This document shows positions 15,558 to 20,539 of a stretch of 64,000 bases of DNA, piece by piece. This DNA is from Mariniphaga sp. (lineage in GTDB: Bacteria > Bacteroidota > Bacteroidia > Bacteroidales > Prolixibacteraceae). The notes beneath the pieces are model-generated. The model was not told the DNA's origin. It saw only the letters and a list, made by a program, of their open reading frames with translations, and searched no databases. The DNA lies in contig JAHYIT010000001.1 of NCBI GenBank assembly GCA_019429205.1, forward strand, positions 1 through 64,000. Reading direction: 5' to 3'. A program made the translations under genes and the position numbers. Each line of letters starts with the position of its first letter. The first letter of the stretch is position 1.

Positions 15558-15735
15558 TTGAGCTGGTGACTTCCGGTCACCTGCTCAATTTCAGACACTA
15601 TTGAGCAGGTGGACTTAGAGCCACCAGCTCAACTTCCTTCGGTTCACCTGCTGTCCGCCGGCTGGCGGATCAACTCGTGTATAGTAGTTTCGGAAACGCA
15701 CGATTGAGCAGGTGGACTTTAAGCCACCAGCTCAA
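15558..15735. repeat. Left REP array (hairpins A, B, C, B)
   Basis: Four palindromes downstream of the GH2 gene: A at 15558-15588 (GAGC T GGTGAC ttccg GTCACC T GCTC), B at 15601-15632 (GAGC A GGTGG...CCACC A GCTC), C at about 15643-15680 (TCCGCC ggct GGCGGA), B again at 15704-15735. Each A/B foot has a symmetric mismatch (T/T or A/A) after GAGC, a feature typical of REP hairpins. The two B copies are exactly 103 bp apart. Confidence 0.85.
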
Positions 15736-15758
15736 ACGCCTTCGGTTCACTAGTTCAA

Positions 15759-16460
15759 TCACAGAATTTTCAACCCCAATTCAGCAGCCTTCTCCCTGTT
15801 TATAAGTTTACCGTCTCTTAATCCCACATAATCACGGTACGACGAAAACTCCCATTCATCCGGAGATTTTACCAGGCCACTTTTTACCGGATTTTGATGG
15901 ATGTAATTAAAGCAAACCTGCGGATATTCCTTCTCCGGATCGGTAATGTTGATAATGATTCCGTACCTGGACTCAAACCAGGCTGGAGTAATTCCGTCAA
16001 CTTCCGTCAGGCAAATGGCTTTGGTTCTATGCTGAAAAAGACTTCCGGTGATATTATTTTGATTCTGAATGGCCCGTGTGTATGAACGCAGTAAAATCGA
16101 AATCGAATCATTAAGCAACCTTTTCTTCGTGAGCTGGTGACTTTTGATCTTCCGGGTGAGCTGGTGACTTCCGGTCACCTGCTCACTATTACTTTCGCCT
16201 TCTTTGGTGAGCTGGTGACTTTCCGTCACCTGCTCACTACTTCTTTCTTCAACACTTACCTCCACCTCCACCTCATTCACATAAACCATCAGATGAAAGT
16301 GGTTCGGCATCAGGCACCAGGCCAGAATATCGGCATGAGATAGAATATGTTTTCTGACTTTTTTAAGAAAGAACAGGTAGTTTTCTCCGGAAAAGAAAAT
16401 GGGTTGTGAGTTATTTCCCCTGTTGTAAATATGGTAGATGTGAGCTTTGGCAAATTGCAT
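15759..16460 (-). CDS. REP-associated tyrosine transposase (RAYT, TnpA_REP) with in-frame REP insertion
   Basis: A 233-aa Y1/HUH transposase of the IS200-related RAYT group. The metal-binding HUH motif is PNHFHLMVY (H54, H56); the probable catalytic tyrosine is Y127 in LLRSYTRAIQNQ, followed by SLFQHRTKA and the NYIHQNPVKSGLV signature. Between the HUH strand and the Tyr helix, about residues 63-113, is an insertion with the repeated peptide SEQVTxSHQLT, encoded by the same palindrome that surrounds the gene. Such enzymes cut single-stranded REP hairpins at the foot and are usually single-copy and domesticated. The insertion sits in a loop, so activity may survive. Confidence 0.88.
   Translation of the reverse strand: MQFAKAHIYHIYNRGNNSQPIFFSGENYLFFLKKVRKHILSHADILAWCLMPNHFHLMVYVNEVEVEVSVEERSSEQVTESHQLTKEGESNSEQVTGSHQLTRKIKSHQLTKKRLLNDSISILLRSYTRAIQNQNNITGSLFQHRTKAICLTEVDGITPAWFESRYGIIINITDPEKEYPQVCFNYIHQNPVKSGLVKSPDEWEFSSYRDYVGLRDGKLINREKAAELGLKIL
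16131..16236. repeat. REP hairpins inside the RAYT coding sequence
   Basis: Two complete A-type palindromes at 16157-16185 and 16208-16236 and a half copy at 16131-16145 lie inside the transposase gene. They match the A palindromes outside the gene (GAGCTGGTGACTTCCGGTCACCTGCTCA) almost base for base. Spacings are 51 and 27 bp, both multiples of three, so the reading frame is kept. Confidence 0.9.
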
Positions 16461-16540
16461 ATCGATTGTTTTCGTTCTGTTTCTGGACTGAAATTACGGA
16501 ATATTATTTTTTTAAGGCATGTGATTTGATTTTTTTTTTT

Positions 16541-16920
16541 GAGCTGGTGACTTCCGGTCACCTGCTCAATTTCGGAGATTTCACCTGCTGTCCGCCGGCT
16601 GGCAGATCAGCTGGTGAATAGTTGCTTTGGGAAAGCACAATTGAGCAGGTGGACATAGAGCCACCAGCTCAACTTCCTTTGGTTCACCTGCTGTCCGCCG
16701 GCTGGCGGATCAACTGGCGAATAGTTGCTTTAGGAAAACACTATTGAGCAGGCGGACTTAGAGCCACCAACTCAACTTCCTTCGGTTCACTTGCTGTCCG
16801 CCGGCTGGCGGATCAACTGGCGAATAGTTGCTTTGGGAAAACACTATTGAGCAGGTGGACTGAGAGCCACCAGCTCAATTGCCTTCGGTTCACTTGTTGA
16901 CTTGAGCTCAGCTGGTGAAT
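16541..16920. repeat. Right REP array with 103-bp tandem units
   Basis: Order: A at 16541-16569, C at 16580-16619, B at 16641-16672, C at 16683-16721, B at 16744-16775, C at 16786-16824, B at 16847-16878 and a degenerate C at 16888-16920. The B elements step by exactly 103 bp, the same period as in the left array. Each unit joins a B hairpin, a CTTCCTTCGGTT linker, a C hairpin and a GAATAGTTGCTTTGGGAAA spacer. The array fills the space between the transposase start and the stop of the methyltransferase-HIT gene. Confidence 0.9.
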
Positions 16921-16925
16921 GGTTG

Positions 16926-17786
16926 TTAAGTGTATTTTTGTTTTTCTGGAATTACCCCCCTTACGCCACCTTCCGGATTTTCTACATCGCCTTTGTACCG
17001 GGGAATTAAATGAATATGTACATGTGGAATAGTTTGACCGGCTGGTTCGTTTACGTTAATTCCAACGTTGAAACCTTCTGGATTAAATTTTTCGGAGATG
17101 ATTTCTTTTGTTTTATTCAAAATAAACCAGCAAGCCGATTGTTCTTTAAACGATAGTTGAAAATAATCATCACAATGCCTTTTGGGAATGATTAAAGCAT
17201 GACCTTTATTTACGGGAAATTTATCGTAAATCGCATACGCAGTGGCCGATTCAAGAATCAATTCTCTATCTGAATCAGGATTGCAAAACGGGCATTCAGT
17301 ATTTTTTCGTTTAATCTGGTTAAAATGTTTGTATTCATACATTTCAACATTTTCATTTTTGAAAATCGATTTGTAGCTGAGCTTCACAATACACTGATAA
17401 GTTGGTTTTTGATATATTTTGTGTGTTCTGAATCCTTCGTATTTAATATCCCTTCGAACTGCAAAATAGGCTTTTCCTGTGGGTTTTAGCAATCGCGAAA
17501 TTTCAATTAATACATTGGATTGCTCTTCCGGAAGCAGAACATTTAAAACGTAAAAACATAAAATCGTGTCAAATTTTTCTTTTGGATATTCCGGAAAATA
17601 ATGATTATCGTAGCCTTTTATTTCAATTCCTTTCGATTTTAATACTTCCACATCTTTACCAAACCCACAGCCAAAATCAAGTGTTTTTCCTTTAACCAGA
17701 TTTTTGTTTAAAAGAATTCTGGCCGGAAACGAAAGTTTATCTCTTTCCTTGGCAGTTAAATGGTTATATTGGTTTTCGAGTTTCAT
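16926..17786 (-). CDS. Bifunctional SAM-dependent methyltransferase / HIT-domain protein
   Basis: A 286-aa fusion. Residues about 30-150 form a class I methyltransferase core (motif I LDFGCGFGKD at 37-45, then GYDNHYFPEYP and FDTILCFYVLNVL). Residues about 160-286 form a HIT domain: zinc-type CPFC at 165-168, GHALIIPKRHCDD, and the catalytic HVHIH at 255-259. HIT proteins hydrolyse or transfer nucleotides at alpha-phosphates. The final GGVRGVIPEKQKY resembles the tails of bacterial HIT proteins. It overlaps the HNH gene by 4 bp, so the two are translationally coupled. The joint substrate is unknown; nucleic-acid or nucleotide modification is inference. Confidence 0.85.
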   Translation of the reverse strand: MKLENQYNHLTAKERDKLSFPARILLNKNLVKGKTLDFGCGFGKDVEVLKSKGIEIKGYDNHYFPEYPKEKFDTILCFYVLNVLLPEEQSNVLIEISRLLKPTGKAYFAVRRDIKYEGFRTHKIYQKPTYQCIVKLSYKSIFKNENVEMYEYKHFNQIKRKNTECPFCNPDSDRELILESATAYAIYDKFPVNKGHALIIPKRHCDDYFQLSFKEQSACWFILNKTKEIISEKFNPEGFNVGINVNEPAGQTIPHVHIHLIPRYKGDVENPEGGVRGVIPEKQKYT

Positions 17787-18817
17787 TCCAAAAATTCAAA
17801 TCCGTTGTTTGAAGCGATGGTAATTAGAGGTTGAAAAACTTCTTTAAATCGAATTTCTGTAAAACTGTTTTCAATATCTGGTAAAACAGTTAAGTAATCC
17901 AAAAGAAATCTACTTTTGGGAGATTTTTTCTGTACAATTTTTACAGCTGTTTTTTGAAGTGAAAAAAACGGCACGAAATAAGTTTTCAAAGGAGGCAATC
18001 TGTTATTTTTGGAACTGTTAAAGGAGGGATCGGCAGGAATCAAATTCCAGATTAAATCGTGCGAGACAAAACTATGCGGAATAAAATGCTCCATCGCATA
18101 ATTTCCAACAGTCAATTTTTTACCTGTATAAATACATTTTATGAACCCCATTTCCTGTATTGCAATATCCCAGAAAAATTTCTTTTGGTTCCCCAGATTT
18201 CCTCTGGATGGCGGTTTAATCAATTTGTTGGGAATGTCGGGAACACTGGAATTTCTTACCTGTAAAAACAAAGATAAATTCCAGTAGCAGAAATCTTTAA
18301 GAATCTTTGAATTGGCCTTTAAATAGTTTATCCATTCAGGATTCACTTCAATAATGTCATCATGTAATGCATAAAGGCACTGTTTGTCGAAAGACTTTGA
18401 AGCGGCATAAATATATTTTTCACTCTTTTTTATAAACCAGGGACTTAAAAAACGATGAGGCACATTCTTATTGAAATGCCAAAGAAGTTTTACGGTATCG
18501 TAATTTTTTGAAGAAGTTAAACGGTTGAAGACTTTTTGTTGTTTTTCATCAACCGGAATTTTTTCAATATCCTTTATCTTGCATACAGTATTTTGAATTA
18601 AATCCAACTTGCCAAATGACACATTGAAATAATTTACTGTGTACCATGAATTTGAAATCATTCGTGCAAACAAATTTTTTTTTGGAATGATGTGATTGCC
18701 GGTTTCAACTTCCTCCAAAATGGATATCAACCAATAAAATTTGTATGTGGCAGTTGTGTTGTTAAAACACGCAGCCAAATAATTTACTGGCAAATGGTTT
18801 GATTCGGGTAATCGCAT
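17783..18817 (-). CDS. HNH endonuclease domain protein
   Basis: A 344-aa protein whose C-terminal half holds an HNH nuclease: CIYTGKKL at about 228-235, the HNH core MEHFIPHSFVSHD (242-254) and WNLIPADPSFNSSKNNRLP (257-275), ending with more basic residues. The order Cys-Cys-less EHFIPHSF...NL.P....NSSK.N matches restriction-type HNH domains. The N-terminal ~200 residues are not recognised and may select the target. First gene of a two-gene operon with the methyltransferase-HIT fusion. Nuclease plus methyltransferase suggests restriction or another defence role, but this is unproven. Confidence 0.82.
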   Translation of the reverse strand: MRLPESNHLPVNYLAACFNNTTATYKFYWLISILEEVETGNHIIPKKNLFARMISNSWYTVNYFNVSFGKLDLIQNTVCKIKDIEKIPVDEKQQKVFNRLTSSKNYDTVKLLWHFNKNVPHRFLSPWFIKKSEKYIYAASKSFDKQCLYALHDDIIEVNPEWINYLKANSKILKDFCYWNLSLFLQVRNSSVPDIPNKLIKPPSRGNLGNQKKFFWDIAIQEMGFIKCIYTGKKLTVGNYAMEHFIPHSFVSHDLIWNLIPADPSFNSSKNNRLPPLKTYFVPFFSLQKTAVKIVQKKSPKSRFLLDYLTVLPDIENSFTEIRFKEVFQPLITIASNNGFEFLE

Positions 18818-18920: not shown

Positions 18921-18999
18921 TTGAGCAGGTGGACTTAGAGCCACCAGCTCAACTTCCTACGGTTCACCTGTGTCCTTTGGCTGGCGGATTAGCGGGTGT
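18921..18999. repeat. Isolated REP B-C unit upstream of the HNH operon
   Basis: A perfect B hairpin (18921-18952) followed by a degenerate C hairpin (18963-18999, TGTCC...GGCGGA partly lost). It is the same family as the arrays at 15.6-16.9 kb. A partial foot (ATTGAGCAGAT) is also visible at about 18869. Together with the array at 16.5 kb it brackets the HNH/methyltransferase-HIT operon. It lies just after the gltX stop. Confidence 0.85.
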
Positions 19000-19006
19000 A
19001 ACCAGA

Positions 19007-20539
19007 TTAATTCTGAATATTTTTTACTGCCGTTTCAATGCGCTGAATGGTTTCTTCTTTTCCCAGAATTTCACAAATTTTGAACAAGTCGGGGCCCATG
19101 TTGCCGCCTACCAAACAGAGACGAAGCGGATTCATGACGGCTCCAAATCCCCAGCCTTTTTCGTTCATAAATGCAGAGAATGTTTCTTTTATTTCTTCTG
19201 CTTTCCAGGTGTCAACAGATTTTAACACTGCTGTTAGGGCAGCAAGTTGTTCCGGTGTGTCGTCTTTCCATCGTTTTTTTACGGTTTTTTCGTCGTAAGA
19301 AGTGGGCGCCACAAAAAAGTAACTTCCCTGTTCCCACAAATCAGAAACAAACTCGCACCGTTCCTTGATTTCTGCAACCACAGCAGTAATTTTTTCACCG
19401 GGTGCAACAATTCCTTTTTTTTCCAGAACGGGTTTAAACAGTTGGGCCAGTTCTTCTTCCGTTTTTTGCTGGAAATAATGCCGGTTGAACCATTTGGCTT
19501 TTTCGGGGTTGAACCTCGAACCTGATTTCACCACACGATCAAGGCTGAAAAGCTGCGTCAGTTCTTCCATCGAAAAGAACTCCTGTTCTGTTCCGGGATT
19601 CCAGCCCAGCAGGGCCAGCAGGTTAATAAAAGCTTCCGGGAAATAACCGTCTTCGCGGTAGCCGCGGAAAACTTCATTTGTAGCCGGGTCTTTCCATTCC
19701 AGCGGAAAAACCGGGAAACCCATTTTATCGCCGTCGCGTTTGCTCAGTTTTCCTTTTCCCTGCGGTTTTAGAATGAGGGGCAGGTGGGCAAACTGCGGTT
19801 TGGTTTTTTCCCAGTCCAGAGCGCGGTACAACAACACATGCAGCGGCATAGACGATAACCACTCCTCGCCGCGGATAACATGGGTAATCTCCATCAGGTG
19901 GTCGTCCACCACGTTGGCCAGGTGGTAAGTTGGCATGCCGTCCGATTTAAACAGCACTTTGTCGTCGAGGCTTTTCGTGGTGTTAAACGTTACGCTTCCG
20001 CGAATAATATCGTTTTCAGTAACATCTTCATCTTCCGGCATTTTAAAGCGCACAACATAAGGTTCGCCGGCAGCCATTTTTTGCTGCACTTCCTCTTCGG
20101 AAATGTTCAATGAATTATTTAGCTTTTCGCGCGTTCCAATTCCGTAAGAAAAAGTTTCCTTATTTGCCTCAGCATCCGTGCGGAGTTTTTCAATCTCTTT
20201 CGGTGTGTCGAAAGCTATGTAGGCCCAACCTGATTTCACCAGTTGATCGGCATATTTCTTATACAAATGTTTACGTTCGCTTTGCCGGTAAGGGCCAAAA
20301 TTACCGCCCATTCCGGGACCTTCGTCGGGATGTAGCCCGCACCATTTCAGGCTTTCCGCAATGTACTCCTCAGCACCCTGTACAAACCGGTTCTGGTCGG
20401 TGTCTTCAATGCGAAGGATAAAATCGCCACCTTGTTTTTTGGCAAAAAGGTAGTTAAAAAGCGCGGTGCGCACGCCACCCATGTGAAGCGGGCCTGTTGG
20501 ACTTGGGGCAAATCGTACCCTTATTTTCTGGTTGCTCAT
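19007..20539 (-). CDS. gltX: Glutamate--tRNA ligase
   Basis: A 510-aa class I aminoacyl-tRNA synthetase that charges tRNA-Glu. The HIGH region reads PSPTGPLHMGGVRTALFNY and the KMSKS loop reads GKLSKRDGDKMGF; EDTDQNRF and GEEWLSSMPLH (family-conserved) are present, and the length is normal. In organisms with GatCAB it may also mischarge tRNA-Gln, but this cannot be told here. A TATCTTTG -7 element sits 24 bases upstream on its strand. The 3' end runs up to a REP unit. Confidence 0.95.
   Translation of the reverse strand: MSNQKIRVRFAPSPTGPLHMGGVRTALFNYLFAKKQGGDFILRIEDTDQNRFVQGAEEYIAESLKWCGLHPDEGPGMGGNFGPYRQSERKHLYKKYADQLVKSGWAYIAFDTPKEIEKLRTDAEANKETFSYGIGTREKLNNSLNISEEEVQQKMAAGEPYVVRFKMPEDEDVTENDIIRGSVTFNTTKSLDDKVLFKSDGMPTYHLANVVDDHLMEITHVIRGEEWLSSMPLHVLLYRALDWEKTKPQFAHLPLILKPQGKGKLSKRDGDKMGFPVFPLEWKDPATNEVFRGYREDGYFPEAFINLLALLGWNPGTEQEFFSMEELTQLFSLDRVVKSGSRFNPEKAKWFNRHYFQQKTEEELAQLFKPVLEKKGIVAPGEKITAVVAEIKERCEFVSDLWEQGSYFFVAPTSYDEKTVKKRWKDDTPEQLAALTAVLKSVDTWKAEEIKETFSAFMNEKGWGFGAVMNPLRLCLVGGNMGPDLFKICEILGKEETIQRIETAVKNIQN

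Follow-up and report, generated by a model that had tools for sequence, protein, structure and literature searches.

In-frame REP hairpins in a clade of Bacteroidota RAYT genes and their turnover with the flanking hairpins

A 64,000-nucleotide stretch of Mariniphaga sp. DNA (contig JAHYIT010000001.1, positions 1 to 64,000; hereafter, the window) contains, at 15759..16460 on the minus strand, a gene for a tyrosine transposase associated with repetitive extragenic palindromic (REP) sequences (RAYT, or TnpAREP), and the REP hairpin that flanks this gene also lies inside its reading frame. Comparison with homologous genes suggests, with a probability of roughly 0.6, that the in-gene copy belongs to the REPtron as its third, resident REP, constrained as a hairpin and turning over together with its flanking counterparts.

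Position, phase, and pairing of the internal hairpin

The window gene encodes a 233-aa Y1 HUH protein. Its HUH motif is H54-F-H56 (~16293-16301), within NHFH, as a first-pass annotation made from the DNA alone had proposed. The same annotation took Y127 for the catalytic tyrosine; alignment with the DYIYINP tyrosine of Escherichia coli TnpAREP (PDB 4ER8) instead identifies Y186 in FNYIHQNP (codon 15903-15905), and Y127 sits in helix αC of the predicted structure (residues 116-135), preceding the Y186 stretch. This structure has a mean predicted local distance difference test (pLDDT) score of 84, with 4ER8 as its top fold match (E 5.4e-7). The HUH motif, the tyrosine in YIHQNP, and a Y1 fold with 4ER8 on top place the gene among the REP-associated tyrosine transposases. 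The NCBIfam model REP_Tyr_transpos (NF047646.1) matches the protein in two stretches and below its cut-off of 80 bits (51.9 bits, E 7e-14), and a Pfam search with the split protein gave no match.

The gene itself holds the flanking palindrome in frame, twice complete and once as a half copy, between the HUH motif and the catalytic tyrosine, a placement that holds with Y186 as it did with Y127. Internal hairpin 1 (GTGAGCAGGTGAC-GGAAA-GTCACCAGCTCAC; 16207..16237, minus strand, with loop TTTCC on the forward strand) encodes SEQVTESHQLT (residues 75-85). Internal hairpin 2, which follows at a spacing of 51 nt (17 codons), has the loop CGGAA (16156..16186, minus strand; TTCCG on the forward strand) and encodes SEQVTGSHQLT (residues 92-102), and the half copy, a single arm (16129..16143, minus strand), encodes SHQLT (residues 107-111). 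The repeated peptide SEQVTxSHQLT was thus read correctly at first pass. In the predicted structure, the hairpin-encoded stretch (residues 75-111) is placed between the HUH strand (β3) and αC, and the prediction for residues 70-111 (pLDDT ~50) is a disordered loop lying off the core.

The aligned homologues carry a variable insert at one common place. They comprise 80 loci from a genome scan, ranked by similarity to an insert-bearing query, and a class-wide search with a loop-free query at E 1e-35 added only one further clade member (L139), so that estimates of prevalence rest mainly on the 80 loci. In L139, the internal stem is ~22 bp, compared with the usual 15. Among the 81 genes compared, 69 have a palindrome, mostly of 13-20 bp, in the β3-αC loop. 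The usual layout of 15 nt, 3 nt, and 15 nt amounts to eleven codons, encoding peptides as different as SEGFTPSETLT, THGVTQSHPVS, SDRMTMSHPIT, TPGATQSRTRS, and SGGATLSRTPT. Codon phase is nearly uniform, with 77 of 88 loop palindromes centered on the second codon base, and stems scoring ≥9 number 75 in 11.3 kb of loop compared with 13 in 41.6 kb of remaining gene sequence. Since the hairpin lies in the same loop and phase in nearly all homologues, the site appears to be old and inherited rather than a recent insertion into the window gene alone.

Arm sequences are very different from gene to gene, and complementarity is kept. Watson-Crick pairing across 73 distinct cores is 92%, compared with 58% in column shuffles (maximum 61.5%) and 16-26% in slid registers; these cores were chosen as palindromes, which inflates the absolute pairing but not the variety of pair types, exemplified by stem pair 4, which is G-C in 41 cores and C-G in 30. 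When synonymous codons pooled from the genes were shuffled, the observed stem was never reached in 63 of 81 inserts, ruling out a chance palindrome. Stem complementarity thus goes far beyond the needs of the encoded peptide. An unusual arrangement is seen in L050 (807-1535), whose loop has one arm (DGFTL) in three copies and, after these, a SEAVS-type arm likewise three times; here, the arms appear to have been amplified separately, and they are complementary to each other all the same.

Internal hairpins compared with flanking and genomic copies

Both flanks are richest in palindromes over the 100 bp next to the gene, and the internal hairpin resembles these. The best-matching site in a gene's own flanks is on average 81% identical to its internal core, against 62% for the flanks of other loci and a maximum of 68% in 20000 permutations, and a cognate flank (≤3 mismatches in 22 stem positions) was found for 42 of 65 loci, compared with 19 of 390 unlike-hairpin loci. 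The identity of internal hairpins correlates poorly with protein identity (r = 0.15) and more strongly with flank identity (partial r = 0.54); hairpin sequence scarcely tracks that of the protein, which indicates joint turnover of the internal hairpins and those in the flanks. The clearest case is the pair L065 and L096, 84% identical outside the loop, whose stems disagree at 8 of 22 positions, with every one of these eight matched by the gene's own flanks. Where a genome has two RAYT genes, each internal hairpin in most cases best fits its own flanks (L019/L020, L027/L066, and L046/L097), the internal hairpins of L036/L052 not being distinguishable by flank fit. In most Bacteroidota relatives, this position holds another hairpin, as a rule one that agrees with the flanks of the gene concerned; gene and hairpin have accordingly changed together during evolution.

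These comparisons bear on the earlier suggestion that copies of the substrate had been inserted into the enzyme's own gene. Its core survives, in that the nucleotides are REP-like, match the gene's own flanks, and are lost in synonymous shuffles; the notion of a recent, private event does not, as the relatives have a hairpin at this site and in this phase too, and what looks specific to the window gene is limited to the second full copy and the half copy. An ancestral linker alone, an outcome that would have spoken against the suggestion, is ruled out by the nucleotide match with the flanks. In an evolutionary sense, it is fair to say that the protein contains a record of its substrate.

At the window locus, the flanking hairpin TTGAGCTGGTGAC-TTCCG-GTCACCTGCTCAA is found at 15558..15588, 3′ to the gene, and at 16539..16569, 5′ to it and ~80-110 nt ahead of the start codon; internal hairpin 2 is identical to both. 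Each of L018, L021, and L022, the nearest homologues, has a single internal hairpin, of the same GAGCAGGTGAC family, for which reason the second full copy and the half copy look lineage-specific. Copy 2 shares its loop with both flanks, and copy 1 shares its loop with the hairpin inside L018, a pattern as compatible with tandem duplication as with copying from a flank.

Copy numbers across genomes are low. The exact palindrome occurs at 7 sites in the 5.12-Mb Mariniphaga genome, 4 of them at this locus, with none for a reversed control pattern; besides the flanking copies, 19 related palindromes are spread across the genome, so REP hairpins do recur genome-wide. Most genomes checked hold 1-5 copies of their hairpin, others up to 18, counts that rule out a high-copy REP family as the source. 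The L040 gene has no flank hairpins, and the one other exact copy of its internal hairpin in the genome is intergenic (L137, G151:C172:10040-10066) and identical in the loop too, indicating that internal and dispersed copies are related.

REP-like arrays of 103-bp units extend on both sides of the window gene, with two palindrome types, GAGCAGGTGG..CCACCAGCTC and TTCACCTGCTG..CAGCTGGTGAA, in alternation, resembling bacterial interspersed mosaic elements (BIMEs) or REP doublets forming hairpins (REPINs). On the 3′ side (15595..15755), the variant GAGCAGGTGG..CCACCAGCTC is found at 15603-15630 and 15706-15733; on the 5′ side (16573..16898), the 103-bp units carry variant hairpins at 16643-16670 and 16849-16876. 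Two similar palindrome types flank the L018 gene. A further copy of the variant hairpin, at 18923-18950, lies just past the 3′ end of an open reading frame (19007-20539, minus strand) that reads like a glutamyl-tRNA synthetase. Of the reading frames between, 16926-17786 appears by eye to fuse a methyltransferase-like N-terminus to a HIT-like C-terminus, and the next, 17783-18817, has an HNH-like motif.

Resident REP or tolerated insertion

The simplest account of all observations is joint turnover by exchange, combined with retention of the stem. The REPtron would comprise three kinds of hairpin site, two of them flanking the gene, one to either side, and the third in frame in the exposed β3-αC loop. 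The internal site would be ancestral to the Bacteroidota clade, and its sequence would be replaced jointly with those of the flanking hairpins, most likely by exchange between neighboring copies, either through cleavage and strand transfer carried out by the RAYT on single-stranded DNA or through gene conversion or template switching between copies <1 kb apart. A foldable hairpin would be kept since stem-breaking variants are selected against. In this scheme, the enzyme would also bind the internal hairpin.

Several observations weigh against a resident, constrained REP. Internal and flanking hairpins are mismatched in about a third of the loci, and in L053 they belong to different families. 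About a dozen homologues have no recognized internal hairpin, most with the frame otherwise intact; among them, L026, L038, L051, and L077 have hairpins in their flanks (L026 on both sides), so the internal hairpin is evolutionarily dispensable. In favor of such a REP, the internal stem of L047, L082, and L091 is near-perfect although no other close copy was found in their genomes; most of the genomes being drafts, this only-copy status is provisional. Also in its favor, stem integrity is 14.1 of 15 pairs with and without a cognate flank alike, in a comparison that took in stem-selected genes only in both groups.

A stronger version of the same proposal, which can be put forward only tentatively, makes the internal hairpin a functional, selected site linking enzyme and substrate, that is, a cognate REP within the gene serving as a reservoir, an autoregulatory ligand, or both. 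Were this so, enzyme and recognition sequence would be inherited and diversified as a single unit.

Alternatively, REPs may repeatedly land or slip into a permissive loop, with in-frame events surviving and neither peptide nor hairpin having a role, the explanation preferred by Quentin et al. 2018 (PMC6006769). We consider such passive tolerance unlikely. The predicted disorder of the loop, its position off the core, and the existence of homologues without a hairpin all agree with it, as does the variable copy number seen in the window gene, L036, L042, and L050, and stop codons in the other phases may restrict the codon phase. Yet one site is filled in most homologues, and stems are intact where the genome shows no other copy. 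The presence of the hairpin changed at least 12 times on the tree, so the internal site is not indispensable, but repeated loss fits these changes as well as gain. Moreover, several other RAYT groups have flanking hairpins of their own, and no palindrome was found between HUH and tyrosine in any of the 21 same-phylum RAYTs of other subclasses with recognizable motifs, nor in L141 and L142, more distant relatives that lack the loop.

Rather unlikely, too, is a cis-regulatory role, in which the hairpin, as mRNA or as transiently single-stranded DNA, would be an autoregulatory site where RAYT binding limits the enzyme's own synthesis. A strong stem maintained by covariation within coding sequence would suit it, the hairpin agrees with the DNA ligand expected for the protein, and upstream flank copies lie near the start codon in many loci. 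Against it, the hairpin is non-cognate in about a third of loci, and stem position 9 on the coding strand keeps C-A mismatches (22/73 internal cores) as readily as T-G wobbles (12/73), so that a role confined to RNA is not favored. The same position-9 pairs are present in flank copies of several loci, and they may be a sign of the strand that is recognized.

Selection for the SxxxTxSxxxT linker at the protein level is very improbable: position and Ser/Thr ends are conserved, and the ATT (Ile) foot is rarer internally (7/72) than in flanks (32/92), showing that the protein sets limits on the hairpin, but the palindrome does not survive synonymous shuffles, there is free variation at the inner residues (EQV, HGV, EGF, DRM, and PGA), the linker is disordered in the predicted structure, and L026 lacks it. 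The foot difference was also considered as a means of making internal copies uncleavable, an idea dropped because ATT is found inside too and avoidance of Ile accounts for the bias.

These results touch on how RAYTs and REPs stay matched and on why RAYTs persist at all. With its dozens of naturally occurring enzyme-hairpin pairs, the clade offers data from which recognition rules might be derived, as well as a testable case of constraint at the DNA level, on a hairpin, within protein-coding sequence. The view of REPs within genes as merely tolerated insertions is thereby challenged, or at least made testable.

Comparison with known RAYT systems

The phenomenon itself was first published in 2018, when in-frame REPs within tnpAREP genes were reported for subclass 2.4 and taken as probably neutral (Quentin et al. 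2018, PMC6006769). The published texts searched contain no report of arm covariation or of a test against a gene's own flanks; relative to them, the conserved position and phase, the arm covariation, the cognate match, and the intact stems at sole draft-genome copies are new here.

As far as the subclasses are described in that text, the clade shares with 2.4 REPtrons the Bacteroidetes hosts, the flanking REPs, the palindromic "double foot" type, REPs in frame between β3 and αC, and the NH[IFV]H motif (NHFH in the window protein). In contrast to the W (in WQ) and YIxNNP of subclass 2.4, members of the clade have F in GSLF[QRK] and YIHxNP, mostly YIHQNP (FQ and YIHQNP in the window protein), and the 5′ GT[AG]G foot of that subclass lies near only 7 of 184 feet in the flanks and 10 of 150 in internal hairpins. 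Given its W-to-F change, its tyrosine motif, and the scarcity of GT[AG]G feet, the clade may be a sister group of subclass 2.4. With subclass 2.6, it has in common the Bacteroidetes hosts, YIH[QN]NP, and atypical hairpins without GT[AG]G; subclass 2.6 has WQ and an αC-β4 insertion, with none between β3 and αC, unlike the FQ and β3-αC insert found here.

E. coli TnpAREP (PDB 4ER8; subclass 2.2) has the same HUH/Y1 fold, catalytic motifs, and gene-flanking REP hairpins, but its REPs are GTAG-footed with a bulge, no internal REP has been reported for it, and its WQ...EH guide-recognition stretch is not conserved in the window protein. REPs of the GTAG and CGTC families are tolerated in frame in loops of unrelated genes (PMC3733652); those are scattered over many proteins, whereas the hairpin described here occupies a fixed site within the gene of its cognate enzyme. 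Likewise, TnpA proteins of the IS200/IS605 family (IS608 and ISDra2), the next-best fold matches, combine a Y1 HUH fold with subterminal hairpin substrates; their hairpins lie at the ends of the element, whereas the clade has one within the coding frame.
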